NCBI RefSeq assembly: GCF_038811545.1
Contig: NZ_CP133319.1
Coordinates: 3,067,516-3,131,515 of the forward strand
Reading direction: 5' to 3'
Source: Rhodoligotrophos sp. CJ14
GTDB taxonomy: Bacteria > Pseudomonadota > Alphaproteobacteria > Rhizobiales > Im1
Length of the DNA stretch: 64,000 nt
A model generated the notes under the pieces. It saw only the letters and a list, made by a program, of their open reading frames with translations. It made no database searches and was not told the DNA's origin. The position numbers and the translations under genes were made by a program. How positions within the stretch are numbered: the first letter of the stretch is position 1; each line of letters begins with the position of its first letter. Shown piece after piece: positions 27,029-45,349 of the stretch.

Positions 27029-27690
27029 GCGGTCGCCTCCGCCAGCTTGTAGCCGACGCCGCGCACCGTCTCGATGACGCCCGGGCCGAGCTTCTGCCTC
27101 AGATTGTGGATGTGCACTTCGATCGTGTTGCTTTCGATATCCTCTTGCCAGCCATAGAGCCGGTCCTCGAGCTGCGACTTCGACAGGATTTGGCCGGGCC
27201 GATCCATCAGCGCATGCAGGATGGAGAACTCGCGGCGCGAAAGACGAACCGCCTCACCGCTCTTTGAGACCGCCATCGTCGCGGGATCGAGGCGCAGATC
27301 GCGCCAGATGCGGCAGGCGGACGTGCCGCCGTTGCCGCGTCGCGTCAGCGCCCTCAGCCGGGCGGCTACCTCGTTCAGATCGAAGGGCTTCCCCAGATAG
27401 TCGTCCGCGCCGGCGTCGAGGCCGGCGATCCGGTCGGGCACGCTGTCCCGCGCCGTCAGAAGAAGGACCGGCGTTCCAACCTGCCGCCCTCGCAATTCGT
27501 CCAGTACGCCGAGCCCCGAGCCGTCAGGGAGCATCAGGTCGAGAACGACCGCGTCAAAGGCCGAGATTCTTAGTGCAGCCGAGGCATCGGCGCAGGTGGA
27601 GACTGCGTCGACCGTGAAGCCGGCCAGGCCCAGCCCGACCTGCAGGCCGTTCAGCAGCACCGCGTCATCTTCGACGACCAAAACCCTCAT
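27025..27690 (-). CDS. OmpR/PhoB-type response regulator (QseB/PmrA-like)
   Basis: A 221-residue regulator. Receiver domain with the acidic pair in VVEDDAVLL, phosphoacceptor Asp51 (VVLDLMLPDGSGLG), Thr in LLLTARD and Lys101 (LGKPFDL). The C-terminal winged helix contains RLSRREFSILHALMDRPGQI and SNTIEVHIHNLRQKLG. It is the closest in style to QseB/PmrA, whose known box is YTTAAK-N5-YTTAAK. Five such boxes occur nearby, one 48 bases before this ATG, so autoregulation and local control of the Dsb and tsdA/cbb3 genes are likely. Confidence 0.93.
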   Translation of the reverse strand: MRVLVVEDDAVLLNGLQVGLGLAGFTVDAVSTCADASAALRISAFDAVVLDLMLPDGSGLGVLDELRGRQVGTPVLLLTARDSVPDRIAGLDAGADDYLGKPFDLNEVAARLRALTRRGNGGTSACRIWRDLRLDPATMAVSKSGEAVRLSRREFSILHALMDRPGQILSKSQLEDRLYGWQEDIESNTIEVHIHNLRQKLGPGVIETVRGVGYKLAEATA

Positions 27691-27738: not shown

Positions 27739-27755
27739 CTTAAGCCAGCCTTAAG
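27739..27755. promoter_or_regulatory. PmrA/QseB-like box 1 (between the regulator and dsbA)
   Basis: CTTAAGCCAGCCTTAAG: two CTTAAG half-sites 11 bases apart. It lies 48 bases before the response-regulator ATG and 70 before the divergent dsbA-like ATG. Confidence 0.75.
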
Positions 27756-27825
27756 GTGGCAGGCGTGGATCCCGGCTCCAGGCGGTATGCCGCCTGTCCC
27801 TCTCACGATCGAAAGGAGATTCCGT

Positions 27826-28464
27826 ATGCCAGCTCTCACGCGTCGCGGCGCCATGGTCGCCATGGGAGGCGCGGCTCTCGCAGTGCCTCTCATGCAACGC
27901 TCCGCCCTCGCGCAACACGCCGACGTTTCGAAGGAAATGATTCTCAATGACCCCGCGGCCCCGGTTTCCGGAGACCCCCGCGGCGACCTGACGATCGTGG
28001 CCTTCCTCGACTACAACTGCCCCTACTGCAAGAAGTCCGCGCCCGACCTTGCTCGCGTCGTGAAGGAAGACGGCAAGATCCGCCTCGTCTACAAGGATTG
28101 GCCGGTGATCCGGCCGACCTCGATCGATGGCGCGACCATGGCGCTCGCCGCCAAATATCAGGGCAAATACGAGGTTGCGCACCACGCGCTGATGGGCATT
28201 CCCGGGGTCGGCGTCCCAAGGGAGAAAATGCGCGAAGGTCTGGAGGCCGCGGGCATCGACATGCGCCGCCTCGACGCGGACATGACAGCCAAGGCAGCTG
28301 AAATCGACGCCATCATCAAGCGCAACATGGCGCAGGCCGATGCCATCGGTTTCTCGGGCACGCCAGCCTACCTCATTGGGCCCTTCCAGACTTCGACCCT
28401 GGACTATCAAGGCTTCAAACTGGCTGTGGCGGACGCGCGAAAGCGGCAGGCAGAGGGACAGTGA
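27826..28464 (+). CDS. DsbA-family periplasmic thiol oxidoreductase
   Basis: A 212-residue exported thioredoxin-fold protein. The leader has TRRGAM and a hydrophobic stretch ending SALA, compatible with Sec or Tat export. Active site FLDYNCPYCKK (Cys65/Cys68) and cis-proline loop GFSGTPAYLIG. It resembles the DsbA-like/BdbD and ScsC groups rather than E. coli DsbA (CPHC). ATG 27826 follows a GAAAGGAGAT site. Divergent from the two-component genes with box 1 between them, so it is a probable direct target. Confidence 0.9.
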   Translation: MPALTRRGAMVAMGGAALAVPLMQRSALAQHADVSKEMILNDPAAPVSGDPRGDLTIVAFLDYNCPYCKKSAPDLARVVKEDGKIRLVYKDWPVIRPTSIDGATMALAAKYQGKYEVAHHALMGIPGVGVPREKMREGLEAAGIDMRRLDADMTAKAAEIDAIIKRNMAQADAIGFSGTPAYLIGPFQTSTLDYQGFKLAVADARKRQAEGQ

Positions 28465-28489
28465 GACGAACACGTGCTCACCACCCCCG

Positions 28490-28860
28490 CTCGCGATGTT
28501 TGCTGTCGATCCTGCTGCCTTTGATCTTGCCGATCGCGACGGTCAGCGGGCACGAGCCATAGCCGTCATAGGCCTTCGGAAACGACTTGCCATCGCAGGC
28601 GGACAGGAGGTTGGCCACCACGGAAGACTGAAGCCGCACGGCTGCAGCCGTCTGGGCATTTGCCGTCGAGACCGCATCCCTGCCCGGCTGGTACGAATGC
28701 GTCTCCGAGGGCTCCGCGACGGCGATGTCGAGATCACGCCTCGGTCGCTTGAACTCGCAACGGCTATACCGGCGGCTCCTCCACCGACGATGATGATGTG
28801 GTGCTTGAGCTGCAGCGCCTTCGGCTCCTGCGGATGCACGGCAGCTTCCATTGAATTTTC
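28490..28860 (-). pseudogene. sqr: Sulfide:quinone oxidoreductase relic
   Basis: Shattered remains of an SQR. The FAD-binding start HHIIIVGGGAAGIAVASS is followed, after a frameshift near 28750, by RRDLDIAVAEPSETHSYQPG. A large internal deletion then removes the catalytic cysteine region, and the reading joins the C-terminal part AQTAAAVRLQ ... FPKAYDGYGSCPLTVAIGKI. The rest of the C-terminus is lost near 28520. Sequence order and strand fit one ancestral gene divergent from the DUF442 gene. It implies this cluster once oxidised sulfide directly. Confidence 0.8.
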
Positions 28861-28933
28861 CCATTTTCAGATCGTTACTTCTGATTTTATGTAACTGTGT
28901 AATCCATGTCGACAATAGTCAAGCAGGCATCCC

Positions 28934-29377
28934 ATGGAGCTCATTCCGGTCACAGAGAAGTTTTCCGTCGCGGGGCAACTTCAGCCCGACGATTTCGCTA
29001 AGTTGCGTCGCCTCGGGTTCAGGAGCGTCATCAACAATCGTCCCGACGGCGAGGACCCGTCACAGCCGGGAACCGATGTGGAAGAAGCGGCGGCCAGGGC
29101 GGCCGGTCTCGACTACGTGTTCATCCCCGTCACCAGCACCTTGATGACGGCGGACGATGCTCGCCGTTTCGCCGAAGCCATCGTCGCGTCGGACGGCCCC
29201 GTCCTGGCGCATTGCCATTCCGGCGCGCGTTCCTTCTACATGTGGGTGCTGGCCGGCGACGCGGACGTTCCGGGATTCAAGAATGACAAGTTCGTCGCCA
29301 CGGCGAGCGGGACCGCACCGGACCACGCCCAAGTCCGGATCGCTGTGAGTCGAGGTCCAGCCAAACCAACGATGTAG
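28934..29377 (+). CDS. DUF442 / TIGR01244-type sulfur transferase-like protein, second copy
   Basis: A 147-residue paralogue of the 4460-4888 protein: FRSVINNRPDGEDPSQPG and P-loop AHCHSGARSFYMW with both the leading His and the nucleophile Cys, a more canonical CX5R loop than the first copy. The last ~35 residues (after VPGFKNDKF) do not resemble the family and may be read-through from a rearranged junction. ATG 28934 lies 75 bases from the SQR relic, suggesting a former divergent sqr/DUF442 pair. Confidence 0.75.
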   Translation: MELIPVTEKFSVAGQLQPDDFAKLRRLGFRSVINNRPDGEDPSQPGTDVEEAAARAAGLDYVFIPVTSTLMTADDARRFAEAIVASDGPVLAHCHSGARSFYMWVLAGDADVPGFKNDKFVATASGTAPDHAQVRIAVSRGPAKPTM

Positions 29378-29606
29378 GGTTTCTTCGATCCTCGCACTTG
29401 AGGCCGTCCGGTGCGTCGCCGGCGATCCGGCGATCAGATCATGCGCCATCATCGATCCGGTCCTCGCCTGCGCCGAGAAGCCCGGAGCTGCCAGGACCGA
29501 ACACGCCGACGGGATCCTCGCCAATTCGTCGAGCAGGTCCTGATGGTTGAATGTATTTTCGACACCCAACCGCGCACGGCGTCCACCTGCGGAGGCCGCC
29601 GTCTCT

Positions 29607-29623
29607 CCTAATGCTGTCTTAAG
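29607..29623. promoter_or_regulatory. PmrA/QseB-like box 2 (before the dsbG-like gene)
   Basis: CCTAATGCTGTCTTAAG: a degenerate first half (CCTAAT) and a perfect second half CTTAAG with N5 spacing, 50 bases before the lipoprotein start. The preceding 29378-29606 shows no gene I recognise. Confidence 0.55.
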
Positions 29624-29673
29624 CTGGCAGGGAGAGGACGCCAACGTTCTGAGTTTTGCACGCGACGGTCTCA

Positions 29674-30471
29674 ATGGGCATGATCGAATTGAAGAAGCTT
29701 CTGCTCGCTGCCGCTTTCGCAGCGAGCCTCGCAGGCTGCAATGACGACAGCGGCACGGCCTCGGCAGATGCTGGCCGTGAGGGGGAGGCGGTCTTGCAGG
29801 CTCTCGAGGAACGGGGCCTGGCCGTCCACGGTCCTCTCGATGTCCCGGGAGGATTGAGCGCATTCGCCGCGAGCTCGGGCACGCAGCCGGTGGCCATCTA
29901 TGTCATGCCGGACTCCAACTACGCGCTGATCGGCGCGCTGATCGATGCGCGCGGCAGTTCCGTCGCTGACGCCGAGTTAAATCGGGTGGCGAGCGAACCG
30001 ATCGAGCGCGAGGCTTGGGCAGCGCTCGAGGCCGCGGCCTGGGTTCAGGACGGAAACCCCAATGCGGAGCGCGTCGTCTATGTGTTCACCGATGCGAACT
30101 GCCCGTACTGTAACCAGCTATGGCGCTCGGCGCGTCCATGGGTGGAGGCCGGCAAGATCCAGCTACGTCATATCATGGTCGGCGTGATCCGCGCCGATTC
30201 TGCCGGGAAGGCGGCCGCGATCCTGGAAGCATCCGATCAGCAGGCCGCGCTCACTCAGAATGAACTGAACCATGCCAGCGGCGGCATCGCCCCTCTTGCG
30301 ACCATATCCGCCGACACCAACGCCAAACTCAACAGCAATGTCGAGTTGATGAGGCGGCTGGGCTTCAGCGGCACGCCGGGGCTCGTTTCCAGAGGCAGCG
30401 ACGGTTCCCTCAACGTGCAGGCCGGCGCCCCCCGGGGAACCGCCCTCGAGACCGTGTTCGGGCCGCTTTAG
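29674..30471 (+). CDS. DsbG/DsbC-like lipoprotein thiol isomerase
   Basis: A 265-residue protein with a lipoprotein leader (LLLAAAFAASLAGC), then a dimerisation-like N-domain and a thioredoxin fold with VVYVFTDANCPYCNQLW. The cis-proline loop is FSGTPGLVSRG. It matches DsbG/DsbC architecture: a periplasmic disulfide isomerase or sulfenic-acid reductase, here membrane-anchored by lipid. Start is uncertain: ATG 29674 or 29680 (MIELKK). Box 2 lies upstream and dsbD, its usual reductant, is the next gene. Confidence 0.87.
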   Translation: MGMIELKKLLLAAAFAASLAGCNDDSGTASADAGREGEAVLQALEERGLAVHGPLDVPGGLSAFAASSGTQPVAIYVMPDSNYALIGALIDARGSSVADAELNRVASEPIEREAWAALEAAAWVQDGNPNAERVVYVFTDANCPYCNQLWRSARPWVEAGKIQLRHIMVGVIRADSAGKAAAILEASDQQAALTQNELNHASGGIAPLATISADTNAKLNSNVELMRRLGFSGTPGLVSRGSDGSLNVQAGAPRGTALETVFGPL

Positions 30472-30516
30472 GCCGTATCGGTCGCCGTCGTGCGGCGTCA
30501 GCAGAGCCGCGCACCT

Positions 30517-30533
30517 CTTAAGCCTGCCTTAAG
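30517..30533. promoter_or_regulatory. PmrA/QseB-like box 3 (before dsbD)
   Basis: CTTAAGCCTGCCTTAAG, perfect two half-sites with N5, 44 bases before the dsbD ATG. Confidence 0.78.
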
Positions 30534-30577
30534 CTGCCGATCAGACCTCTCCCGCCCGTGTCACATGAAGCGGGAGC

Positions 30578-32437
30578 ATGCCGTTGCCTTCGAGAACTAT
30601 CTGGTCCGTCCTTGTCGCGGTGCTGATGATTGCGATTGCCGCGATATCCACGCCGGCATCTGCGCAGGTGACGTCCACGGGAGGGATGCCGCTCCCCGTC
30701 GATCAGGCGTTCCAGCTCTCTGCGACGCGCGAAGGCGACGAGGGCGTCCGGCTGCAATGGACGATCGCGTCAGGCTACTACCTCTATCATGATAAATTCG
30801 GCGTCACGCAGGGCGCGTCCGACCTCGCGATGCCCGAACTCCAGGGCAACGGTCAAAGCAAAGACGATCCGACATTCGGCCCATCCACCGTCTTCCATGA
30901 CCACGTCGCCGCCGTGGTTCCTCTCGGAGCCTCGGCATCCGGCCCGCTCGAAGTCCACTATCAGGGATGTCAGGACAACGGCATCTGCTACCCGCCGATC
31001 GTCCGACATGTCGATGTCACGACGCTCGCCGTGACCGATCCGCAGCAACGCGCACCGGCAACCCAGGCTCATGAATGGACAGCTCCCATTTCGGGGGCGC
31101 CGGCGCTAGCGAGCGGCGTCACCATCGCGGCGGATAATGGCGGCTTGATCGGCTCGCTGCTCAAAGACGGCGGCGTCGCGATGGTGCTGGCAAGCTTCCT
31201 GATGTTCGGCGTGCTGCTCGCCTTCACCCCTTGCGTGTTCCCGATGTACCCGATCCTCGCCGGAGCGATCGCGCGTCAGGGCGACTCGGTCACAGCGGTC
31301 AGGGGGTTCAACCTGTCGCTCGCCTATGTCTTGGCCATGGCGACCGCCTTCGGGCTCCTCGGCGTGGTCGCCGCCTGGTCGGGCCAGAACCTGCAGATGG
31401 CGCTTCAGTCTCCGCTCGCCATCGGCGCCGTCTCGATCCTGTTCGTCATCCTCGCCCTGTCCATGTTTGGCCTGTTCGAATTGCAGCTGCCATCGGCCTG
31501 GGTGAACGCCATCGGCCGTATCGGACAGGGTGATCGCGGGTCGCTGGCCTCGGCCGCACTGCTTGGCTTCACCTCCGCGCTGATCGTCGGACCGTGCGTC
31601 ACCGCACCGCTCGCCGGTGCGCTGATCTATATCGCGCAGACCGGCGACGTGGCGCTTGGCGCCGCATCGCTCTTCGCGCTCGGCCTCGGCAAGGGCATTC
31701 CGCTGATTGCCTTCGGCACGCTCGGTCCGAAAGCCTTGCCCAAGGCCGGGGCGTGGATGACCTCGGTGCGCCAGGCGTTCGGCTTCGTGTTCGTGGCCAC
31801 CGCGATCTGGATGGTCTCGCGCCTCATCCCCGCCGAGGCCGCTCTTGCGCTCTGGGCCCTCTTTGCCATTGGTCTTGCGGTGTGGCTCGGAGCCTTCGAT
31901 TCGCTCGGGCCCGACGCACCAGGGCGACGCCGGACCGCCAAGGCCGCCGGCATCGCCGCAGCCCTCTACGGCATCGTGCTCGCGGTCGGCGCCGCCAGCG
32001 GGGCCAATGACCCTTTCCGTCCCCTGAGCAACCTCACCGCGAACACGAGGGGCGGCGCCGGTTCTGCGCAAGCGCTGGCTTTCCGAAACGCGGCGACCCC
32101 GGCCGAGCTGCGAACCGGGCTTGCCGCAGGCAACGGCAAGCCCAGCCTCCTCTATGTCACGGCCGACTGGTGCATCACCTGCGCGGTCATCGATCGCAGC
32201 ATTCTTTCCGATCCCGCCGTCCAGTCCACGCTCGCCCGCTTCAATCTCATCAAGCTCGACGTCAGCGCCAACACGCCCGACCAGCGCCAGATCATGCAGA
32301 GCCTTCAGGTCGTCGGTCCACCGACGATGATCTTCGTCGGTCCCGAGGGACAGGAGGCAACGGGAACCCGCCTCGTCGGCGACGTGACCAAGGCGACCTT
32401 GTGGGCCTCGGTCGAGCGTACGGGCCTGGTCCAATGA
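30578..32437 (+). CDS. dsbD: Thiol:disulfide interchange protein DsbD
   Basis: A 619-residue three-domain electron relay carrying reductant from cytosolic thioredoxin to periplasmic thiols. Signal peptide to about residue 29; alpha domain with YQGCQDNGICYPP; eight-helix beta domain with TPCVFPMYPILAGAI and GPCVTAPLAGALIY; C-terminal gamma thioredoxin domain with VTADWCITCAVID. All six redox cysteines appear present. It should reduce the DsbG-like and TlpA-like proteins encoded on either side. It overlaps the next gene by four bases. Confidence 0.95.
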   Translation: MPLPSRTIWSVLVAVLMIAIAAISTPASAQVTSTGGMPLPVDQAFQLSATREGDEGVRLQWTIASGYYLYHDKFGVTQGASDLAMPELQGNGQSKDDPTFGPSTVFHDHVAAVVPLGASASGPLEVHYQGCQDNGICYPPIVRHVDVTTLAVTDPQQRAPATQAHEWTAPISGAPALASGVTIAADNGGLIGSLLKDGGVAMVLASFLMFGVLLAFTPCVFPMYPILAGAIARQGDSVTAVRGFNLSLAYVLAMATAFGLLGVVAAWSGQNLQMALQSPLAIGAVSILFVILALSMFGLFELQLPSAWVNAIGRIGQGDRGSLASAALLGFTSALIVGPCVTAPLAGALIYIAQTGDVALGAASLFALGLGKGIPLIAFGTLGPKALPKAGAWMTSVRQAFGFVFVATAIWMVSRLIPAEAALALWALFAIGLAVWLGAFDSLGPDAPGRRRTAKAAGIAAALYGIVLAVGAASGANDPFRPLSNLTANTRGGAGSAQALAFRNAATPAELRTGLAAGNGKPSLLYVTADWCITCAVIDRSILSDPAVQSTLARFNLIKLDVSANTPDQRQIMQSLQVVGPPTMIFVGPEGQEATGTRLVGDVTKATLWASVERTGLVQ

Positions 32438-33237
32438 ACGCCATCAGCATCGGCCCGTTCGTCTTCGCCGCGGCGCAGTTCGCGGCCATTCTCGGCATTT
32501 TCGCCTTCACGATCACAACGTCGATCCTGGCACGCCGCGTCGACCCGCTGATCGGCCGCTGGTCGACATGGGCGTTGATCGGCGGCCTGATCGCGGCGCG
32601 GCTCGGGCATGTCGGCCTGCATTGGCAAAGCTTCATCGCAGAGCCGTGGCGAGTGATCGCATTCTGGCAAGGCGGCTTCGAGCCGGTCGCCGGTCTGATC
32701 GGCGTCGCCATCATCAGCGCTTTCTTCATTCGTTCCCTCAAGACCGGTGCGGCAGCCGCAGGCGCGCTTGGCCTCAGCCTTGTCGTCTGGATCGGCGTCA
32801 CGCAACTCACCCAGGCGACTCTCGGCCAGCCTGCGCCGACCGTCGCCCTGCAACAGATCGACGGCCCGCCGCTTGCCGTTAGCGACGTCGCCGGCAAGCC
32901 GGCCGTTATCAATCTCTGGGCGAGCTGGTGCCCGCCCTGCCGCAGGGAAATGCCATTGCTTGCCGAGATCGCCGCAAGCAGGGACGACGTCGCCTTCCTC
33001 TTCGTCAATCAGGGCGAAGGCTCGGACACGATCCGCTCCTATCTCGCATCCGAGAATCTCAAGCTCGATCGCGTACTGCTCGATCAGTCGATGCAGATCC
33101 CGCGGCACTACGGGACGATGGGGCTTCCCATCACCCTTTTCCTCAGAGCCGACGGAACCCTCGCGTCCATGCATATGGGCGAAATCTCCCGGGAAGCCCT
33201 TAACGCCAATATCGAGAAAATGACGGGTCCGACATGA
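32434..33237 (+). CDS. TlpA-like membrane-anchored thioredoxin
   Basis: A 267-residue protein with four to five N-terminal membrane helices (residues 5-130), a layout like the Lgt-like/TlpA fusions seen next to dsbD, then a periplasmic TlpA/ResA domain with NLWASWCPPCRREMP and cis-proline MGLPITLFL. TlpA-type proteins reduce cytochrome c haem-binding cysteines or the copper chaperones of cytochrome oxidases. Several c-type cytochromes and a cbb3-type oxidase are encoded 3-10 kb downstream. ATGA overlap with dsbD makes it the natural electron acceptor of DsbD. Confidence 0.9.
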   Translation: MNAISIGPFVFAAAQFAAILGIFAFTITTSILARRVDPLIGRWSTWALIGGLIAARLGHVGLHWQSFIAEPWRVIAFWQGGFEPVAGLIGVAIISAFFIRSLKTGAAAAGALGLSLVVWIGVTQLTQATLGQPAPTVALQQIDGPPLAVSDVAGKPAVINLWASWCPPCRREMPLLAEIAASRDDVAFLFVNQGEGSDTIRSYLASENLKLDRVLLDQSMQIPRHYGTMGLPITLFLRADGTLASMHMGEISREALNANIEKMTGPT

Positions 33238-33344
33238 CGCCGGTGGTTCCGATGCAAATCGCGGCCGGTCCGCTGCCCTTCACCCCCAAAGTTGAACCAT
33301 CCGCCTTCCTCGATCCGGGCGCGGCCAACGATGCGTAACGACCA

Positions 33345-33956
33345 ATGATTTCGTCTAGGAAAAGCGGCGCGTTCTTCACCCTGCTGGTCAGCCTCGTTGT
33401 GGCCGGTTGCACCACGACGACATCCACATCTGTCACCCAGGCGCGCGATCGCTCACAACCCGCCGCTGGGATCGAGGCTTCCAGGGTCGATCCGAAGAAC
33501 CGGCGACAACAGGTGGACTATCGCACGCCGCATGCCCCGGGAACGATCATCGTCGATACGACAAATCGCTTCATCTATCTGGTGCAGGAAAACGGAAAGG
33601 CGATGCGTTACGGGGTCGGCGTCGGTCGCGAAGGACTCGCGTTCACAGGCACGGCCAATATTGGTCTCAAGCGCGAATGGCCGCGCTGGACGCCGACACC
33701 CAACATGATCGCTCGCGAGCCCGAACGATATGCGCGCTGGGCCGCCGGGATGGAGGGCGGACCGAACAATCCTCTCGGCGCGCGGGCGCTCTACCTTTAC
33801 AAGGACGGTAAGGACACGCTGTTTCGCATCCACGGCACCAATGAGCCGCACACCATCGGCCATGCCGTCTCGTCCGGCTGCATCCGCATGTTGAATCAGG
33901 ACGTCATCGACCTCTATCGTCGCGTCCCGGCAGGATCGAAAGTCGTTGTGCTGTAG
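33345..33956 (+). CDS. L,D-transpeptidase (YkuD) lipoprotein
   Basis: A 203-residue lipoprotein: leader LLVSLVVAGC, then a YkuD domain with GTIIVDTTNRFIYLV, RIHGTNEPHTIGHAVSSGCIRM (catalytic His and Cys in the SSGCIRM motif). It would form 3-3 peptidoglycan cross-links or attach envelope proteins. Its catalytic cysteine must stay reduced in the periplasm; in E. coli, DsbG protects the single cysteine of the L,D-transpeptidases YbiS, ErfK and YnhG. That gives a concrete reason for sitting beside dsbG and dsbD. Confidence 0.92.
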   Translation: MISSRKSGAFFTLLVSLVVAGCTTTTSTSVTQARDRSQPAAGIEASRVDPKNRRQQVDYRTPHAPGTIIVDTTNRFIYLVQENGKAMRYGVGVGREGLAFTGTANIGLKREWPRWTPTPNMIAREPERYARWAAGMEGGPNNPLGARALYLYKDGKDTLFRIHGTNEPHTIGHAVSSGCIRMLNQDVIDLYRRVPAGSKVVVL

Positions 33957-34025
33957 CCGCGTTGGCATAGTCAATCATTTGGAACGGACGCCTCCCATTC
34001 CAACGATCCGGAGGCCTTCAAAGCA

Positions 34026-34682
34026 ATGGGGTTTCGTAAAATGGAGATCAATTGGGACAGCAGATTCGAACGTGAGGACTATCTCTTCGGGACCGAGCCA
34101 AACGCTTTTCTTGCCTCGCAGGCCTTCCGGCTGCAACCTGGAATGAAGGCGCTTGCGGTCGCCGACGGAGAGGGGCGCAACGGCGTCTGGCTCGCCGAGC
34201 GCGGGCTCGACGTCGTTTCGTTCGATGCCTCAACGGTCGCGCTTGCAAAGGCGCGGGACCTCGCCCGCCGACGCGACGTGACCTTGCAGACCGTGCATTC
34301 CGATCTTGCCAAGTGGGAGTGGGAACCCGAAACCTACGACGTCGTCGCCGCGATCTTCGTGCAGTTCGCACCGCCCGATTTGCGCAAGACGATGTTTGAA
34401 GGCTTCCACACATGCCTGAAGCCTGGCGGAATTCTGATCATGCAGGGATATCGCGTCGAACAGCTTCGCTACGGCACCGGTGGCCCGCCGCACGCCGATC
34501 ATCTCTACACGAAGGATATGCTGATCCGGTCATTCGGACATTGGGAAATCCGATACCTTCAGGAGCATGACAGCGTGATCGAGGAAGGAGCCGGGCATTC
34601 CGGCATATCGGCCCTGATCGATCTCGTTGCCGAAAAGGCAAGACATGATGTCCTGCCGCTCCCCTCATTGAAGGCCGCGTAG
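34026..34682 (+). CDS. Class I SAM-dependent methyltransferase (TehB-like)
   Basis: A 218-residue cytosolic methyltransferase. Opening INWDSRFEREDYLFGTEPN, SAM-binding motif I as ALAVADGEGRNGVWLAERG, motif II FDASTVALAKAR, and DVVAAIFVQFAPPDLRK. The short form and N-terminal pattern resemble TehB/thiopurine-type enzymes that methylate metalloids or thiols. A GGAGG site precedes ATG 34026; ATG 34041 is possible. The substrate is unknown. Its place among thiol genes makes a sulfur or metalloid substrate plausible. Confidence 0.82.
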   Translation: MGFRKMEINWDSRFEREDYLFGTEPNAFLASQAFRLQPGMKALAVADGEGRNGVWLAERGLDVVSFDASTVALAKARDLARRRDVTLQTVHSDLAKWEWEPETYDVVAAIFVQFAPPDLRKTMFEGFHTCLKPGGILIMQGYRVEQLRYGTGGPPHADHLYTKDMLIRSFGHWEIRYLQEHDSVIEEGAGHSGISALIDLVAEKARHDVLPLPSLKAA

Positions 34683-34736
34683 ACGGATTGCATAGCGATG
34701 TCGTAGCTCGTGACGTCATCGCGCATCGGGCGCCAC

Positions 34737-35480
34737 CTAGCCAACCGCCAGATACGACATCATTGGGTCGGGGATGACGACGATCGGGCTGCCATCGCGA
34801 ACCTCGTCATGGAGATGGATGACATCCTGATTGAGCAGCCGGATGCAGCCGGACGAGACGGCATGGCCGATCGAAAAGGCCTCAGGCGTGCCGTGCAGCC
34901 GATAGAGCGTGTCGCGCCCGCCTTCATGAATGTAAAGCGCGCGCGAGCCAAGCGGGTTGTTGAGTCCGGGGTCCATTCCGCCATTTGCGATGCTGTACGG
35001 CTCCAGCTCGGGCTGGCGGGCGACCATGCTGTCGGGCGGCGTCCAACGCGGCCATTTGCGCTTATAGGCGACGATCGCGCGCCCCGACCATGCAAAGCCT
35101 TCGCGGCCGACGCCGATGCCATAACGCGTCGCGCGGCCCTCCGGCTTCACATGGTAGAGGTACTTGCCAGGCGTATCGACGATCAGCGTTCCTGGCCCCT
35201 CCTCTGTCGGATAGTCGACCTCCGTCCGCCAGAAGCGGCGATCGACCTGGGAGACGTCGACCTCGGGAATGGGGAACGGCTCGTTCGGCATCGCCGTATA
35301 CATCAGCGGAACCGCGGGTTCCGGCTCGACCTTGACAACTGGCGCCATCATCGGGACCGGCTGGCGTGTCGATACGCAGCCCGCCAGTGTAAAGGCGCTG
35401 GCGCCGACCAGAAATGCGCGCCGTGCCAGCGGCCTGGAAAGTGTCGTTTTACTCAATTGTCTCTCAGCCTTCCGAATCAT
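34737..35480 (-). CDS. L,D-transpeptidase (YkuD) lipoprotein, second copy
   Basis: A 247-residue paralogue of the 33345 protein on the opposite strand. The leader combines a twin-arginine-like RRAFLVG with a lipobox ASAFTLAGC. YkuD domain: GTLIVDTPGKYLYHV, RLHGTPEAFSIGHAVSSGCIRLLNQDV. The two copies share WPRWTPP/WPRWTPT and NNPLGSRALYI/NNPLGARALYL blocks, so they are diverged duplicates. Its start is 32 bases from box 4, which it shares with the divergent thioredoxin-like gene. Confidence 0.9.
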   Translation of the reverse strand: MIRKAERQLSKTTLSRPLARRAFLVGASAFTLAGCVSTRQPVPMMAPVVKVEPEPAVPLMYTAMPNEPFPIPEVDVSQVDRRFWRTEVDYPTEEGPGTLIVDTPGKYLYHVKPEGRATRYGIGVGREGFAWSGRAIVAYKRKWPRWTPPDSMVARQPELEPYSIANGGMDPGLNNPLGSRALYIHEGGRDTLYRLHGTPEAFSIGHAVSSGCIRLLNQDVIHLHDEVRDGSPIVVIPDPMMSYLAVG

Positions 35481-35512
35481 TCCGGTTCAGAACGCTCAAA
35501 CGTCAGGGCCAC

Positions 35513-35529
35513 CTTAAGCCTGCCTTAAG
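35513..35529. promoter_or_regulatory. PmrA/QseB-like box 4 (divergent promoter)
   Basis: CTTAAGCCTGCCTTAAG, identical to box 3, 32 bases before the second L,D-transpeptidase start and 40 bases before the thioredoxin-like gene at 35570. Confidence 0.78.
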
Positions 35530-35569
35530 ACGGGAACTCACCGTTGCCTCGAACAACGGAGAGCCACAG

Positions 35570-36097
35570 ATGCTGATTTCGACCTGGAAGCTGGCAGACA
35601 TTCACCGGAACGATCAGGGCGCGGGTGCCTGCGGTCATCGTCCGTCCCGGTCCGCGATCGTCGCAACGCGGCGTCAGCTCCTGATCGGAGCTCTCAGCGT
35701 CGCGGCCGCTACCAGCCTTGCCGTTCCTGCCGGGGCCGCGGTCCTGACCGTCACCAACCTCGACCAATACCGAGGCGGTCTTGCACGCCTCGCTCCGCGC
35801 TACCGGACCGCGCTCGTCGACATTGGCGCGGAATGGTGCGCCTTCTGCAAGACCATTGATCAGAAGATCCTCCCGGACCCCGGCGTCCGGCGAGCCATGG
35901 AGCGAATTGCGCTGATCAAGGTCGACGTGACCAGAATGGGCCAGTCCAGCCGCGAGCTCCTTCGATACCTGCGCGCCGACGGGCCCCCAACGCTCTTCGT
36001 CGTGCAGACTGCGAGCGGACGTGAATTCTCAGGCACGCGATCCGTCGGAGCCTTTCGAGCGAGTGACCTCGTCCGGCGCCTGCGCCCGTTCGCCTGA
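35570..36097 (+). CDS. Exported thioredoxin-like protein (DsbD-gamma-like)
   Basis: A 175-residue protein with a long N-terminus ending in a twin-arginine-type leader (TRRQLLIGALSVAAATSLAV) and cleavage-like AGA. The thioredoxin domain carries DIGAEWCAFCKTIDQKIL and the cis-proline segment DGPPTLFVVQTASG, closest to the DsbD gamma domain and thioredoxin_7 proteins. Likely a periplasmic reductase fed by DsbD. Start ATG 35570 is preceded by GGAGAG. Box 4 upstream ties it to the two-component regulon. Confidence 0.85.
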   Translation: MLISTWKLADIHRNDQGAGACGHRPSRSAIVATRRQLLIGALSVAAATSLAVPAGAAVLTVTNLDQYRGGLARLAPRYRTALVDIGAEWCAFCKTIDQKILPDPGVRRAMERIALIKVDVTRMGQSSRELLRYLRADGPPTLFVVQTASGREFSGTRSVGAFRASDLVRRLRPFA

Positions 36098-36128
36098 CAT
36101 CGATACCGGTTTCAAGACATGCGGGAGC

Positions 36129-36142
36129 TTGATTGAGATCAA
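36129..36142. promoter_or_regulatory. FNR/FixK-type box upstream of the cytochrome/tsdA operon
   Basis: TTGATTGAGATCAA, a perfect TTGAT-N4-ATCAA palindrome, 46 bases before the triheme cytochrome start. Matches low-oxygen activation by an FNR/FixK/ANR protein. Confidence 0.8.
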
Positions 36143-36175
36143 CGCGTGCGTTGGGTCGCTCATGATACTTACATA

Positions 36176-36190
36176 ATTACTGAAAGTAAT
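36176..36190. promoter_or_regulatory. Inverted repeat overlapping a start codon
   Basis: ATTAC-TGAAA-GTAAT, a perfect 5-bp inverted repeat whose right arm includes the A and T of ATG 36189. It could be a repressor site or an mRNA hairpin hiding the start. If translation really begins at GTG 36201, it is simply in the leader. Confidence 0.4.
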
Positions 36191-37541
36191 GGGGCGGATC
36201 GTGAAACTGTTCATCAAGCTGGCGCTATTCGCGATCTGCGGACTTGGAATCTCCTATGCCTTCGCGATTTCCACCCCCTATTGGTTCAAGCCGAAGGCCG
36301 AGGCGCATGTCGACGTCACCGATGCCGCCCTGATCCGCCAGGGCGCGTATCTCGCGCGCGCAGGCGACTGCATCGCTTGCCACACCGCCCCTGGCGGCAA
36401 ACCCTTCGCCGGCGGCCTCGGCATGCAGACGCCGATGGGCACGATATATTCGACCAACATCACGCCCGATGCTCAAACGGGTATCGGCGGCTACAGCTAC
36501 GGCGACTTCGAGCGGGCCGTACGAAAAGGCATCCGGCCCGACGGCACGCACCTCTACCCCGCCATGCCCTACGTCTCCTATGCTGTCGTCAAGGACGAGG
36601 ACATCAAGGCGCTCTACGCCTACTTCATGTCGAGCGTCGAAGGGGTCCGGCAGGACAACCAGCCGACCACCATGCCTTGGCCGCTCAGCATGCGCTGGCC
36701 GCTTGCCTGGTGGCAGCTCATATTCGCCCAGCCCCGCGACTTTGCCGCGACGACCACCGATCCGCAGCTCGTGCGCGGCGCCTATCTTGTCGAGGGCCTC
36801 GCCCATTGCGGCGCCTGCCATACGCCACGCGGCATCGCGTTTCAGGAAACGGCCCTCGCCGATGGCCCGAACAGCCGATTTCTGTCGGGCTCCGTCCTGG
36901 AGGGCTGGTACGCCAAGAACCTTCGCGATGAAGACACTGGCCTGTCGACCTGGACGGTCGATGAGATCGTCGATTTCCTGAAGACTGGCCGCAATGCCAA
37001 GACGGCGGCCTTCGGCTCGATGTCCGATGTCGTTGAGCATTCCACCCAGTATCTTGCGGCCGACGACCTGACGGCGATCGCCACCTACCTCAAATCGCTG
37101 AACGCCCGCGACGGACGCAGCCCGACATGGCAGCCGAAGGAGGATCTCACCACCGCGGCCCTCAAGGCCGGCGATTTCAGCGCCCCCGGCGCCATGTCCT
37201 ACGTCGAGCACTGCGCGACCTGCCACCGGATGGACGGCAAGGGCGCGCCGCGCATCTATCCGGCGCTCGCCGGAAACTCGATGGTCTTTGCCGATGATCC
37301 AAGCTCCCTCATCCAGGTGACGCTTGCCGGCGGGCGCATGCCCCGCACCCCGCATGACACCATGGCCTTCACCATGCCCGGCTTCGCTCACCTGACGAAC
37401 CGCGAGGTCGCGGCGATGCTGAACTTCATCCGCAATGGCTGGGGCAATCACGGCAGCGAGATCACCGAGGCCGACATCTCGCGCATGCGTCATGAGATCG
37501 CGCGAAAGCCGAAGCACTACGTACCGGGAGAACAAGAATGA
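36189..37541 (+). CDS. Triheme c-type cytochrome (dehydrogenase cytochrome-subunit type)
   Basis: A 450-residue membrane-anchored cytochrome with one N-terminal helix (about 7-27) and three haem sites: GDCIACHTAPGG, AHCGACHTPRG and EHCATCHRMDGKG. The domain order is that of the cytochrome subunits of alcohol, gluconate and aldehyde dehydrogenases (AdhB-like), but no flavin or PQQ dehydrogenase is adjacent. Here it probably passes electrons between TsdA or quinol and the oxidase. ATG 36189 has a weak ribosome site; GTG 36201 (preceded by GGGGCGG) is an alternative. It overlaps the next gene by four bases. Confidence 0.88.
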   Translation: MGRIVKLFIKLALFAICGLGISYAFAISTPYWFKPKAEAHVDVTDAALIRQGAYLARAGDCIACHTAPGGKPFAGGLGMQTPMGTIYSTNITPDAQTGIGGYSYGDFERAVRKGIRPDGTHLYPAMPYVSYAVVKDEDIKALYAYFMSSVEGVRQDNQPTTMPWPLSMRWPLAWWQLIFAQPRDFAATTTDPQLVRGAYLVEGLAHCGACHTPRGIAFQETALADGPNSRFLSGSVLEGWYAKNLRDEDTGLSTWTVDEIVDFLKTGRNAKTAAFGSMSDVVEHSTQYLAADDLTAIATYLKSLNARDGRSPTWQPKEDLTTAALKAGDFSAPGAMSYVEHCATCHRMDGKGAPRIYPALAGNSMVFADDPSSLIQVTLAGGRMPRTPHDTMAFTMPGFAHLTNREVAAMLNFIRNGWGNHGSEITEADISRMRHEIARKPKHYVPGEQE

Positions 37542-38449
37542 CCAACCGCTCCCTCATCTTGACCGGGATCGCGATCGTGGCGATCACCGCAGCGGCCGGC
37601 ATATTTGCGCTAACGCACCAGCGCACGCTGGATGCCCCGGTTAACGACGCAATCGCGATCCTGGACGCTACCGGCGCCCGCATCGGCGACTATCGCATTC
37701 CGCCGGACAGTTCGATCGCGCAAGAGCCGAATGCGGTTGCCATCATGCTTGGCAAGCGGCTGCTGAACGAAACCGCGCGCCTGCTTCCCATCAATGTCGG
37801 CAACGGGCTCAACTGCAACTCCTGCCACATGGCTCAAGGCAAGCTCTCCGACGCCAACACCTACATCAATACAAGCAATTTCTATCCCGCCGTCATGCCC
37901 CGCGCCGGGCGCGCGGTCGATCTCGTCACGCGCATCAACGGCTGCTTCCAGCGATCGATGAACGGCAAGCCTCTCGCAGAGGACAGCTCCGAAATGCAGG
38001 CAATGGTCGCCTATATGGACTGGTTGCGGCAGGACGTGGCCAAAGGCGCCAGGGTTGCGGTCCGCAACGCCGGGCCGATCGACGACACCCTGATACCGGA
38101 TCCCGAGAGAGGCCAGGCGATCTACGCCGCCCAGTGCGCCTCATGCCATGGCGCCAATGGGCAGGGCATGAAAGACCAGTCCGGCAACTATATCTTCCCG
38201 CCGCTCTGGGGTGACGAATCGTTCAATATCGGCGCCGGCATGGCGAGAACTTACAAGGCGGCGCAGTTCGTCAAATATGCGATGCCGCCGGCCATGAACC
38301 TGATACCACCGCTCGGAACGGGCGGCGTCCTCTCCGATCAGGATGCCGTCGATGTTTCGGAATACTTCACCCACATGCCCCGTCCCGATTTCGCCGGAAA
38401 AGTGCACGACTGGCCCACAGGCAACAAGCCGAAGGACGCGCGTTATTAG
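37538..38449 (+). CDS. tsdA: TsdA-type thiosulfate dehydrogenase (diheme cytochrome c)
   Basis: A 303-residue periplasmic or anchored diheme cytochrome. Haem 1 site LNCNSCHMAQG (Cys93/Cys96/His97), haem 2 site AQCASCHGANG (Cys200/Cys203/His204). The diagnostic TsdA segment DLVTRINGCFQRSMNGKPL carries Cys136, which matches the unusual axial cysteine ligand of the active-site haem. TsdA joins two thiosulfates to tetrathionate, releasing two electrons. It is translationally coupled to the triheme cytochrome and lies just before the cbb3-like oxidase genes. Confidence 0.9.
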   Translation: MTNRSLILTGIAIVAITAAAGIFALTHQRTLDAPVNDAIAILDATGARIGDYRIPPDSSIAQEPNAVAIMLGKRLLNETARLLPINVGNGLNCNSCHMAQGKLSDANTYINTSNFYPAVMPRAGRAVDLVTRINGCFQRSMNGKPLAEDSSEMQAMVAYMDWLRQDVAKGARVAVRNAGPIDDTLIPDPERGQAIYAAQCASCHGANGQGMKDQSGNYIFPPLWGDESFNIGAGMARTYKAAQFVKYAMPPAMNLIPPLGTGGVLSDQDAVDVSEYFTHMPRPDFAGKVHDWPTGNKPKDARY

Positions 38450-38480
38450 AACATGTCTTTTTCAAGGCTGAACCTGGTTT

Positions 38481-38497
38481 CTTAAGGTTGCCTTAAG
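38481..38497. promoter_or_regulatory. PmrA/QseB-like box 5 (before the cbb3-like operon)
   Basis: CTTAAGGTTGCCTTAAG: perfect CTTAAG half-sites with N5, 70 bases before the ccoN-like ATG and 32 after the tsdA stop. Confidence 0.78.
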
Positions 38498-38567: not shown

Positions 38568-40139
38568 ATGGTGACGATGGGACTGTTGTTGGCGTTGAGC
38601 TTCGCCGTGTCGCTGCTCGCGCTCGCGTTCCTGATCTGGGCGATCAGCAACAAGCAGATCAAGCTCGACCAGCAAGACGCCAAGGTGATCTTCGCCGCGG
38701 GCGACGAGAACCACCTCGACAGCCCCGACGCCGAGCAATCACCCGCCAGGCGACATTACTTCGACACCGTCACCACCGGCATCGACCACATCTCCATGAG
38801 GCCGGCGGCCGTCCTTCTCGTCGCGGCCACCCTATGGCTGCTCGTCGGTTCGGCCTTCGGCCTCATCGCCTCGCTGAAGCTGCATTGGCCGGACTGGCTT
38901 TCCGCCTACGCACCGCTCACCTTCGGCCGCGTCCGCACGCTACACCTCAACCTTGTCATCTACGGGTGGCTGTCGCAGGCCGGCATCGCCGCGATGATCT
39001 GGATTTTGCCGCGCATCTTCCACACGCCGCTGCGCGCGCCCCGGATGCCGATCATCGGAGCGGTCCTCTGGAACATCGCCGTGGCGCTGGGAGCCGTCGC
39101 GATCGCCAACGGCTGGACGGATGGCGAGGAGTGGCTGGAAATTCCCTGGCAGCTCGACATGCTGCTGGCGCTGGCCGGCGTCTTCTTCGTCATCCCGCTG
39201 GTGAAGACGACGCTCGCCCGGGAGGTCCACCACATCTATGTGAGCGGCTGGTACTTCCTCGCGGGAATCCTCTGGTTCCCCTGTCTCTTCGTCATTGCAA
39301 ACCTGCCCATCCATTCGGGCGTCGAAGAGGCCACGGTGAACTGGTGGTTCGCTCACAATGTGCTGGGCCTCTGGCTGACGCCGCTCGGCGTGGGAACAGC
39401 CTACTACTTCATTCCGAAAATCATCGGCAAACCGATCTATTCCTATTCCGTCTCACTGCTTGGATTCTGGGGCCTCGCACTCTTCTACAGCCAGGTGGGC
39501 ATCCATCATCTGATCGGCGGACCGGTGCCGACCTGGGTCGTGACGCTCTCCATCGTTCATTCGGTGATGATGTTCATCCCGGTGATCGCGGTGGCCATCA
39601 ACCAGCATGTCACGGTCGCCCGCAATCTCTGGGCCCTGAAAGAATCGCTGCCGTTGCGTTTCATATCCTTCGGCGCCGTCATGTATACGCTGGCCTCGTT
39701 CCAGGGTTCGATCGAGGCGCTGCGCTCGGTCAACACGGTCACGCATTTCACGCACTATACGGTCGGGCACGCCCATCTCGGAGCCTACGCCTTCGTGACG
39801 ATCGTCATGTTCGGCGCGGCCTATCACATGCTGCCGCGCATGACCGGCCGGGCCTTCCTGTGGCCGGCTCTGATCAACGCGCATTTCTGGCTGATCGTCG
39901 TCGGCTTCGCGATCTACTTCTTCGGGCTTTCGATCGGCGGCGTGCTGCAGGGCCTCGCCATGCTCGATGCGACACGCCCGTTCTCTGACAGCGTCATCCT
40001 CACGATCCCTTATCTCGAGGCGCGCAGTCTCGGCGGCAGCCTTATGACGCTTGGCCACATCCTCTTCGCCGTCAATGTCGCCGCCATCCTCATTCCGCGC
40101 CGGGCATCGGCGGCCGCACGCGTGGTGCCCGCCGAATGA
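38568..40139 (+). CDS. ccoN: cbb3-type oxidase catalytic subunit with N-terminal CcoS-like segment
   Basis: A 523-residue haem-copper oxidase subunit I. Residues 1-50 (LALSFAVSLLALAFLIWAI then NKQIKLDQQDAKVIF) look like CcoS/FixS, normally a separate assembly protein. The CcoN domain follows: LHLNLVIYGWLSQ, the CuB region NWWFAHNVLGLWLTPLG, YYFIPKIIGKPIYSYS (cross-linked Tyr), GIHHLIGGPVPTW, and HYTVGHAHLGAYAF for the haem ligands. It is diverged from classical CcoN, so haem type and pumping are inferred. A GGGGGAGGGG site precedes ATG 38568. It overlaps ccoO by four bases. Confidence 0.88.
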   Translation: MVTMGLLLALSFAVSLLALAFLIWAISNKQIKLDQQDAKVIFAAGDENHLDSPDAEQSPARRHYFDTVTTGIDHISMRPAAVLLVAATLWLLVGSAFGLIASLKLHWPDWLSAYAPLTFGRVRTLHLNLVIYGWLSQAGIAAMIWILPRIFHTPLRAPRMPIIGAVLWNIAVALGAVAIANGWTDGEEWLEIPWQLDMLLALAGVFFVIPLVKTTLAREVHHIYVSGWYFLAGILWFPCLFVIANLPIHSGVEEATVNWWFAHNVLGLWLTPLGVGTAYYFIPKIIGKPIYSYSVSLLGFWGLALFYSQVGIHHLIGGPVPTWVVTLSIVHSVMMFIPVIAVAINQHVTVARNLWALKESLPLRFISFGAVMYTLASFQGSIEALRSVNTVTHFTHYTVGHAHLGAYAFVTIVMFGAAYHMLPRMTGRAFLWPALINAHFWLIVVGFAIYFFGLSIGGVLQGLAMLDATRPFSDSVILTIPYLEARSLGGSLMTLGHILFAVNVAAILIPRRASAAARVVPAE

Positions 40140-40756
40140 ACCGCTATCTTCCCCTTTCGATCATCGCGCTCGGCATCCTGGCTTTCGCAACCTTGCTGCT
40201 TGTCATCGCGCCGGGCATCCAGATCGGCCGTCACGACGCTCCGCCTGGTCTGGAGCCCTATACCGAGCAGCAATTGCGCGGCCGCCAGGTCTACGTGTCG
40301 CTCGGCTGCGTCTACTGTCACAGCCAGCAACCGCGATCGCCCGACCAGGCGCCCGACGGCGCACGGGGCTGGGGACGTCCGGCCATTGCCGCGGATTACA
40401 CCTACGATGCGCCCCATCAGCTCGGGACAATGCGCACCGGACCCGATCTCCTGAACGTCGGCGCAAGACTGCCGTCACGGGACTGGCACCTGGCCCATCT
40501 CTATCAGCCGCGCGCCATCTTCGACTGGAGCATCATGCCGGCCTATCCTTTCCTCTTCGAGGTCAAGGGTGCCCCCGATCCCGGCGACGTTGTCGTCTCC
40601 ATGCCTTCCGGCTTTGGGCCCGAAGCAGGCGTTATCGTCGCCAAGCAGGACGCGCTTGATCTCACCGCCTACCTGCTGTCCCTCGACCGTACCTATCCGG
40701 CGCCCGCCGACGCCATTCGCGACGATGGCTACCGCCGTCCGGAGGGCACGCCATGA
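40136..40756 (+). CDS. ccoO: cbb3-type oxidase mono-haem subunit II
   Basis: A 206-residue membrane-anchored cytochrome c: N-terminal helix residues 5-26, haem site YVSLGCVYCHSQQPR, then RTGPDLLNVGAR and DWSIMPAYPFLFE with the likely axial Met, all as in CcoO/FixO. Four-base overlaps at both ends show tight coupling. It delivers electrons to the CcoN-like subunit. Length is near the CcoO norm. Confidence 0.93.
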   Translation: MNRYLPLSIIALGILAFATLLLVIAPGIQIGRHDAPPGLEPYTEQQLRGRQVYVSLGCVYCHSQQPRSPDQAPDGARGWGRPAIAADYTYDAPHQLGTMRTGPDLLNVGARLPSRDWHLAHLYQPRAIFDWSIMPAYPFLFEVKGAPDPGDVVVSMPSGFGPEAGVIVAKQDALDLTAYLLSLDRTYPAPADAIRDDGYRRPEGTP

Positions 40757-45196: not shown

Positions 45197-45349
45197 AGTG
45201 CCGCTTCGTGGGCGGCCTGCGAATAGAGCTTCGTCACCGACAAGATGCGAGATACTCGGTTCCAATCTTCGCGAAGATCGCCAGCCGACGTACCCAGGAC
45301 GAGCAGGTGAGCCCGCAAGCTTAAGAGCCGGTCAAGGATCGATGATCCG

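Follow-up and report, generated by a model that had tools for sequence, protein, structure and literature searches.

A PmrA/QseB-like two-component system with a conserved periplasmic cysteine and its probable, box-defined set of Dsb and L,D-transpeptidase genes

A 64,000-nucleotide stretch of Rhodoligotrophos sp. CJ14 (contig NZ_CP133319.1, positions 3,067,516 to 3,131,515; hereafter the window) carries a PmrA/QseB-like two-component system next to genes for periplasmic thiol enzymes and L,D-transpeptidases, and copies of the box CTTAAG-N5-CTTAAG stand upstream of these genes. Comparison with related loci leaves us highly confident that the boxes define a real regulon, and the adjacent regulator and kinase very probably control the boxed promoters as one set. 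Judged by gene content, the widespread core of this regulon is the kinase, the regulator, DsbD-, TlpA- and DsbA-like enzymes, and cysteine-dependent L,D-transpeptidases. With moderate confidence, we favor a scheme in which the kinase senses thiol damage through a periplasmic cysteine, Cys84, and the PmrA/QseB-like regulator activates repair enzymes and transpeptidases.

A sequence-only reading of the window had placed five boxes between 27739 and 38497. All five positions are borne out, four as exact copies and one, the site at 29607 before dsbG, as a weak box with one mismatch to YTTAAK-N5-YTTAAK and two to CTTAAG-N5-CTTAAG (Table 1). When up to one mismatch is allowed on both strands, nine matches are found in the window, whereas dinucleotide-shuffled versions have 0.22 on average. 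The gap from box to start codon is 48 bases for the regulator gene, 70 for dsbA, 50 for dsbG, 44 for dsbD, 40 for the thioredoxin-like gene and 70 for the ccoN-like gene. The range of 40-70 bases claimed earlier thus holds for these targets and fails for the divergent L,D-transpeptidase gene, which lies 32 bases from its box. CTTAAG reads the same on both strands, so that a single box can serve a pair of divergent genes; the 172 exact boxes in the 111 loci described below give 254 box-gene orientations.

In the single-contig genome of 4,813,108 bases, the exact pattern occurs four times, always inside the same 10.8 kb of the window, which is not the chance density that would have spoken against the earlier proposal. 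Three one-mismatch sites lie elsewhere in the genome. According to mechanically made lists of open-reading frames (ORFs), one is inside an ORF (L007), one is 54 bases before an ORF unlike any window protein (L001), and one is between two ORFs whose 3' ends face it at 123 and 109 bases (L008); the 3-kb stretches around the three sites contain no homologue of the 18 window query proteins. With only these three sites outside the cluster, a genome-wide regulon in this organism is unsupported. Searched with up to two mismatches, the extended motif CTTAAG-NCNGN-CTTAAG matched 8 genomic sites, 5 of them at the locus. The same search with the pattern reversed as a control found 12, and the weak site at 29607 is therefore not significant alone. 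It is backed by synteny: a box with at most one mismatch is found within 300 bases upstream of 8 of 11 dsbG genes. The window has an additional two-mismatch site at 45320.

The boxes are conserved among relatives, as the sequence-only reading had suggested should be checked. A DsbD query against a reference genome collection yielded 160 related loci, and the best 80 reduce to 60 that are non-redundant at 90% dsbD DNA identity. Across these 60 loci, all 92 exact boxes found with spacers between 0 and 20 have spacer 5; seven other palindromic hexamers have no pairs at that distance. As a single hexamer, GAATTC occurs 294 times in these loci against 255 for CTTAAG, boxes counted in. Thirty whole genomes that carry the locus have 109 exact boxes against 11 copies of the reversed pattern, with one genome having none. 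In an even sample of the class (289 genomes), 25 of the 288 others have an exact match, at 27 sites in total. The box before dsbD is kept in relatives with as little as 43% protein identity.

The locus of Chelatococcus caeni DSM 103737 (L017) shares 99-100% protein identity with the window for the genes on it. Neither the two congeners that were sampled nor one further member of the family has an exact box, and two 2CSK_N kinases of one congener (L156, L160) have Tyr at the position of Cys84; the system is therefore not general in the genus. Five further loci (L019, L020, L021, L022 and L024) have identical gene order, near-equal identities to the window and matching box spacing. Their records are named Bradyrhizobiaceae, Rhizobiales, Shinella, Tardiphaga and Rhodospirillales, and four of the five are metagenome bins. 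This likeness suggests recent transfer.

To define targets, 120 locus entries were merged by overlap into 111, and a gene was counted as boxed if a box with at most one mismatch lay within 300 bases upstream. Repeated genes were removed (ccoN from 9 to 8, canonical ccoN from 13 to 12, tlpA from 59 to 58, ccoO from 22 to 21), as were genes within 350 bases of a locus end, which excludes dsbD of L037, L050 and L089. A box precedes 71 of 83 dsbD genes, and the remaining 12 follow a boxed dsbA, dsbG or thioredoxin-like gene on the same strand. Boxes also precede 74 of 90 regulator genes, 42 of 52 ldtB-type L,D-transpeptidase genes and 10 of 13 thioredoxin-like genes. Fewer of the dsbA-like (38/97) and ldtA-type (13/56) genes are boxed, and genes that are usually internal to an operon are not boxed at all (tlpA 0/58, methyltransferase-domain 0/16, ccoO 0/21). 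The earlier description of the regulon as local holds for the window, where it forms one cluster; in three relatives (L101, L103, L107), boxed L,D-transpeptidase genes are found away from the dsbD loci, on separate contigs.

Ten box targets without a window homologue, chosen mainly for length, were scanned, and three are other YkuD proteins, one of them with scaffold and peptidoglycan-binding domains. The boxes at L086:18361, L098:3114 and L104:13890 precede YkuD proteins unlike the two in the window, which suggests repeated recruitment of such enzymes. Neighborhood clustering over 94 loci also returned several clusters, each spanning 16-22 loci, that have no homologue in the window; from their coordinates we took them to be antisense frames.

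By Pfam, a regulator with receiver and winged-helix domains and an adjacent kinase of the HisKA/HATPase kind form an OmpR/PhoB-type two-component system; all 50 regulators compared keep the phosphorylatable Asp, which lies in the motif DLMLPDG. The best PDB matches of the regulator are BasR/PmrA structures (8jo2, 4s04). The pair falls below the NCBIfam equivalog cut-offs of both PmrAB (PmrA 227.7 against 330 bits; PmrB 135.1 against 314) and QseBC (QseB 208.4 against 345; QseC, the best NCBIfam match of the kinase, 265.4 against 475). In Klebsiella, PmrA contacts bases through T187, N188, V192, H195, N196 and R210 (excerpt of PMC4660055). The window regulator has S, N, V, H, N and R at these positions, five of six identical with a conservative change of T187 to Ser, which by sequence places it with PmrA in DNA recognition. 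The K. pneumoniae PmrA box consists of the half-sites CTTAAT and CCTAAG, bound head to tail (excerpt of PMC3973317), and these half-sites are close in sequence to the window boxes and to the weak site. The claim that the adjacent pair controls the whole set is sustained by these mostly retained contacts and by the co-occurrence of box, regulator, kinase and targets over many rearranged loci.

Cys84 is the sole cysteine in the periplasmic part of the kinase and is present in 46 of 46 aligned rows, a set that takes in the window and its identical copy L017. It is found in none of the 44 rows of three control sets (0/20, one of them a gap, 0/21 and 0/3), from which the window's own kinase and that of G084, a Cys84 carrier counted as a member, were left out. 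A structure predicted from 36 sequences (the window and 35 loci; mean predicted local distance difference test score 78.8, predicted template modeling score 0.48) places Cys84 in the first strand (residues 83-88) of the sensor part. The top listed Foldseek matches of this model are mostly histidine-kinase cores and carry little information on the sensor.

The kinase also leads to the system when used alone. Queried against 247 genomes of another family, it found 50 places in 47 genomes; ten were left out as belonging to genomes already represented by a DsbD locus, and of the 40 taken, 37 hold a close kinase, two (L256, L257) a divergent kinase and one (L255) a fragment that lacks the sensor domain. 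Some of the 37 loci share genomes or contigs with the DsbD set. All 37 kinases, each at least 43% identical to that of the window, have Cys84 and at least one exact box nearby. An L,D-transpeptidase gene lies near 32 of them and dsbA, dsbD or dsbG near 31, with at least one of these near every kinase. The two divergent kinases have Tyr84 and no box; the third control row of this set is a second, divergent kinase in L248. The L255 fragment, which has no box in 17 kb, is perhaps a decayed copy of the system. In the class sample, G084 encodes a Cys84 kinase of 44% identity with a regulator, a one-mismatch box, tlpA and a dsbA-like gene as neighbors.

No plasmid record holds 80% of a whole-locus query. 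Six plasmid records have a match, and three of them, on reading, proved to be related versions of the locus. In Paracoccus versutus and P. aminovorans, a plasmid has the regulator pair together with Dsb genes and both tsdA-type genes, and exact boxes stand before dsbD and before ccoN; the stretch does not take in the beginning of the first tsdA operon, and an L,D-transpeptidase was found in P. aminovorans alone. A compact version on a Limimaricola plasmid is annotated as L,D-transpeptidase, kinase, regulator, DsbD, TlpA, L,D-transpeptidase and DsbA; it has an exact box before dsbD, and its kinase has the cysteine.

The thiol enzymes of the window give this arrangement its likely meaning. DsbD passes its family cut-off and has cysteines at 131, 137, 219, 340, 532 and 535, which form three pairs; compared with Scs-type systems, an ScsC-like match is present, yet the transporter passes the DsbD cut-off. 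Both window transpeptidases have one cysteine apart from an N-terminal one, which by eye lies in a lipobox-like stretch, and exactly one cysteine past residue 40 is found in 31 of 32 ldtA and 20 of 22 ldtB relatives. According to a review, E. coli DsbG prefers transpeptidases with an essential single cysteine and appears to protect single-Cys proteins from sulfenylation (excerpt of PMC3526765, citing Depuydt 2009). Since DsbG appears to guard such proteins, and the transpeptidases of the window are single-Cys enzymes, we read the regulon as bringing together the likely clients, the machinery for their repair and a sensor that has a single cysteine on its periplasmic side.

The mechanism that we propose draws on box conservation, the target set, the co-occurrence of the kinase, the DNA-contact residues and the conserved Cys84; from these comparisons we infer binding, activation, the signal and a feedback loop. 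The regulator would bind CTTAAG-N5-CTTAAG head to tail just upstream of its genes. It most likely acts as an activator of its own operon, of the DsbA/DsbG/DsbD/TlpA machinery and of the single-cysteine L,D-transpeptidases. In the genome of the window and some others, it would also control a TsdA/cbb3-like electron-transfer operon. That the regulator activates rather than represses is probable. Activation is assumed from PmrA, because the boxes are not followed by a clear -10 element. An oxidized or otherwise modified Cys84 would increase phosphorylation of the regulator; that the kinase senses periplasmic thiol damage through this residue is our preferred reading, at about even odds. Once induced, the reductases fed by DsbD would repair the cysteines of the transpeptidases, perhaps along with Cys84, and so close the loop. 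The fullest version, in which Cys84 is itself a client of these reductases and the loop gauges the redox state of periplasmic single cysteines and so protects the L,D-transpeptidases at their catalytic cysteine and TsdA at its cysteine-ligated haem, is a tentative and rather doubtful extension.

Several observations weigh against this scheme. DsbG, its key link to transpeptidases, clusters in just 10 of 94 loci. Many dsbA and ldtA genes and some regulator genes have no box of their own, and membership of a boxed operon was checked for dsbD only. Seven of the ten scanned targets without a window homologue belong to unrelated families such as a LysR regulator, an MFS transporter and an asparagine synthase, some of which may be false. 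G018 and G084 have the system with one-mismatch boxes and no exact box, and at contact position 196, 28 of 50 regulators have His against just 15 with Asn. No clear -10 element emerges from the 220 sites inspected; A is present at position 29 from the box start, 12 bases past the box, in 59% of them and possibly belongs to a degenerate -10 element. With 71 residues invariant across the kinase set, Cys84 among them, conservation alone is no proof of sensing, and this cysteine may be structural or metal-binding instead. Finally, two box-bearing QseBC-like pairs (L185, L186) have Ile or Phe at position 84, and no dsb homologue occurs in the 9-11 kb read around them.

The TsdA/cbb3-like genes, present in a minority of loci, are by their distribution an accessory target. 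Both TsdA-like proteins have two CxxCH haem motifs and match solved TsdA structures, and the cysteine between the motifs (Cys136 and Cys149) is presumably a haem ligand. The oxidase falls short of cbb3 family cut-offs (ccoN 275.2 against 583 bits; ccoP, for the third gene of the operon, 47.1 against 180). A CcoN/CcoO-like oxidase combined with a three-haem cytochrome and the TsdA nearest to TsdBA, in place of CcoP (38568-43031), is possibly fed by thiosulfate. All eight ccoN genes related to that of the window, itself included, are boxed, whereas none of 12 canonical ccoN genes (less than 40% identical) is. The sequence-only reading had proposed one program coupling thiol repair to thiosulfate-fed respiration. 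The coupling survives in that the cbb3/tsdA genes are a conserved target where present; the program is not centered on them, as its core is Dsb/TlpA and L,D-transpeptidases. Canonical, unboxed ccoN lies near the kinase in L048, L049, L052, L056, L058, L059, L061, L066, L070 and L072, whose record titles name the Brucella/Ochrobactrum group, a Rhizobiales bacterium and Paenochrobactrum.

Two features of the thiol cluster are worth recording beside the coordinates in Table 1. The N-terminus of the TlpA-like reductase matches Lgt (PF01790, residues 2-101, E 1.2e-6), which perhaps marks a fusion or an uncommon kind of membrane anchor. The methyltransferase-domain gene perhaps belongs to the same operon.

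Table 1. Boxes and genes of the probable regulon in the window
Feature	Coordinates	Strand	Basis or remarks
Sensor histidine kinase, QseC-like, 2CSK_N sensor domain, periplasmic Cys84	25622..27028	-	Pfam; NCBIfam
OmpR-family response regulator, PmrA/BasR-like	27025..27690	-	Pfam; PDB; NCBIfam; contact residues
Box 1, regulator/dsbA-like intergenic	27739..27755	none	CTTAAGCCAGCCTTAAG; exact
DsbA-like/ScsC-like periplasmic thiol oxidoreductase, CPYC	27826..28464	+	Pfam DSBA; PDB 3gyk, 4gxz
Weak box 2, before dsbG	29607..29623	none	CCTAATGCTGTCTTAAG
DsbG	29674..30471	+	NCBIfam DsbG 284.6 bits, above cut-off 124; CPYC
Box 3, before dsbD	30517..30533	none	CTTAAGCCTGCCTTAAG; exact
DsbD	30578..32437	+	NCBIfam DsbD 509.6 bits, above cut-off 330; N-terminal, membrane and C-terminal domains
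TlpA-like thiol reductase, CPPC	32437..33237	+	Pfam AhpC-TSA/Redoxin and LGT
L,D-transpeptidase (YkuD)	33345..33956	+	Pfam; cysteines 22 and 179
Methyltransferase-domain protein	34041..34682	+	Pfam
Second L,D-transpeptidase (YkuD), divergent from box 4	34737..35480	-	Pfam; cysteines 35 and 212
Box 4, L,D-transpeptidase/thioredoxin-like intergenic	35513..35529	none	CTTAAGCCTGCCTTAAG; exact
Thioredoxin-like, resembles DsbD C-terminal domain, CAFC	35570..36097	+	Pfam Thioredoxin_7; NCBIfam DsbD positions 452-570
Three-haem cytochrome c	36189..37541	+	Pfam; three CxxCH
TsdA-like thiosulfate dehydrogenase 1	37538..38449	+	PDB 4wqd/4wq7/4v2k, E 1.6e-47 to 2.1e-47
Box 5, before ccoN-like gene	38481..38497	none	CTTAAGGTTGCCTTAAG; exact
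CcoN-like oxidase subunit I	38568..40139	+	PDB cbb3 CcoN 3mk7, E 4.2e-67
CcoO-like subunit	40136..40756	+	Pfam FixO
Second three-haem cytochrome c	40753..42000	+	Pfam; three CxxCH
TsdA-like thiosulfate dehydrogenase 2	41997..43031	+	PDB 5lo9, E 1.2e-84; 4v2k, E 3.1e-49
Heavy-metal P-type ATPase, CcoI-like by position	43037..45196	+	Pfam; TIGR01525 393 bits, cut-off 346

Copper and reactive sulfur are serious rivals to thiol damage as the signal. In a copper response, which we regard as unlikely, Cys84 would bind Cu(I) or be oxidized by copper, and the genes would form an Scs-like tolerance regulon that shields copper-sensitive thiols, including those of L,D-transpeptidases, and supplies a copper oxidase. 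Copper inhibits L,D-transpeptidases. Among the PDB matches of the DsbA-like protein is ScsC (4gxz, 'Suppression of copper sensitivity protein'), and the last operon ends with a heavy-metal P-type ATPase, which perhaps transports copper and scores 368 bits in the copper subfamily TIGR01511, below its cut-off of 397. ScsC contributes to copper resistance in Proteus (excerpt of PMC5524982), which we also count for this explanation. However, residues 33-155 of the kinase hold no invariant His or Met and only Cys84, which is thin for a copper site, and the ccoI-like ATPase gene is present in just 20 of 94 loci and has its own box in 0 of 21 cases.

Alternatively, the pair could be an ordinary PmrA/QseB-type envelope sensor of a cationic peptide, a metal or acid, in which Cys84 is structural and the Dsb/L,D-transpeptidase set is merely the output at hand. 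Membership of both proteins in the PmrA/QseC superfamily agrees with this, as do L185 and L186, exact-box pairs with no dsb homologues nearby. We find it quite unlikely: Cys84 sets the Dsb-linked kinases apart from every control row, and the main target set is thiol-related.

A third possibility, slightly less likely still in our estimate, is that Cys84 is persulfidated by sulfane sulfur and the regulon handles polysulfide damage and thiosulfate use. Box operons contain two TsdA-like enzymes, and the TsdA-regulator-Dsb arrangement recurs on the Paracoccus plasmids. Nearby, about 6.6 kb apart, lie two genes with matches to the bifunctional Blh model (NF040641), one to its dioxygenase part (21398-22300) and one to its sulfurtransferase part (28934-29377), both below cut-off. 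Yet the blh-type genes are unboxed in 18 of 18 cases, and TsdA genes are few in the 111 loci (six tsdA1, eight tsdA2). Chance or repeat-driven clustering of an AT-rich palindrome, in which the boxes would not be operators, can draw on the doubling of two-strand counts by a self-palindromic hexamer and on two-mismatch genomic sites at control level, and is rejected as negligible by the absence of boxes at the 20 other spacers, their placement before first genes, the genome counts and the retention of the dsbD box in distant relatives.

If the fullest version of the scheme is true, a cell reads the redox state of periplasmic single cysteines through a dedicated two-component system. To our knowledge, the sensing of periplasmic thiol state by two-component signaling and the regulation of L,D-transpeptidases are both poorly known. 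L,D-transpeptidases make alternative, beta-lactam-tolerant cell-wall cross-links. Both questions become directly testable, in alphaproteobacterial laboratory strains such as Chelatococcus or Paracoccus versutus, because the regulon is conserved and offers a defined box, a defined target set and a single candidate for the sensing residue.

We found no published description of this regulon in the open-access PubMed Central literature, searched partly with PmrA or DsbG in view, in line with the sequence-only reading, which knew of no described system with this gene set. The system nonetheless has known relatives. Enteric PmrAB (BasRS) resembles it in regulator fold, most contact residues and a head-to-tail box of two half-sites. 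Whereas the targets of enteric PmrAB concern lipid A modification, those of the window are Dsb and L,D-transpeptidase genes, and the pair is below the PmrA and PmrB cut-offs. The window kinase is nearest to QseC by NCBIfam and PDB and shares the 2CSK_N sensor; it differs in falling below the QseB/QseC cut-offs and in Cys84, which is absent from the control 2CSK_N kinases.

Control of an L,D-transpeptidase gene by a two-component system for envelope stress has been described elsewhere. Cpx of E. coli controls ldtD (excerpt of PMC4791840), and CenKR of Rhodobacter sphaeroides raises the transpeptidase gene RSP_1199, with dsbC and msrA as predicted direct targets (excerpt of PMC9275681). These systems have other regulators, other motifs and wider targets, and the excerpts of these papers mention no DsbD-DsbA-L,D-transpeptidase cluster or cysteine sensor; they are functional cousins of the window system, not members of it. 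The two TsdA-like proteins match solved TsdA and TsdBA; unlike TsdA/TsdBA, their genes sit with a CcoN/CcoO-like oxidase or a three-haem cytochrome, behind the box of a Dsb regulator. In short, the parts are of known kinds: a PmrA-type box and regulator, a QseC-type kinase, DsbD/DsbG/ScsC/TlpA enzymes and TsdA. The window shares DsbD-, ScsC/DsbA- and TlpA-type parts with the ScsABCD and DsbD-DsbG-TlpA pathways, and in E. coli DsbG appears to protect single-cysteine transpeptidases (excerpt of PMC3526765). In the window, such parts share a regulon, defined by the box, with genes for transpeptidases and a two-component system of their own.

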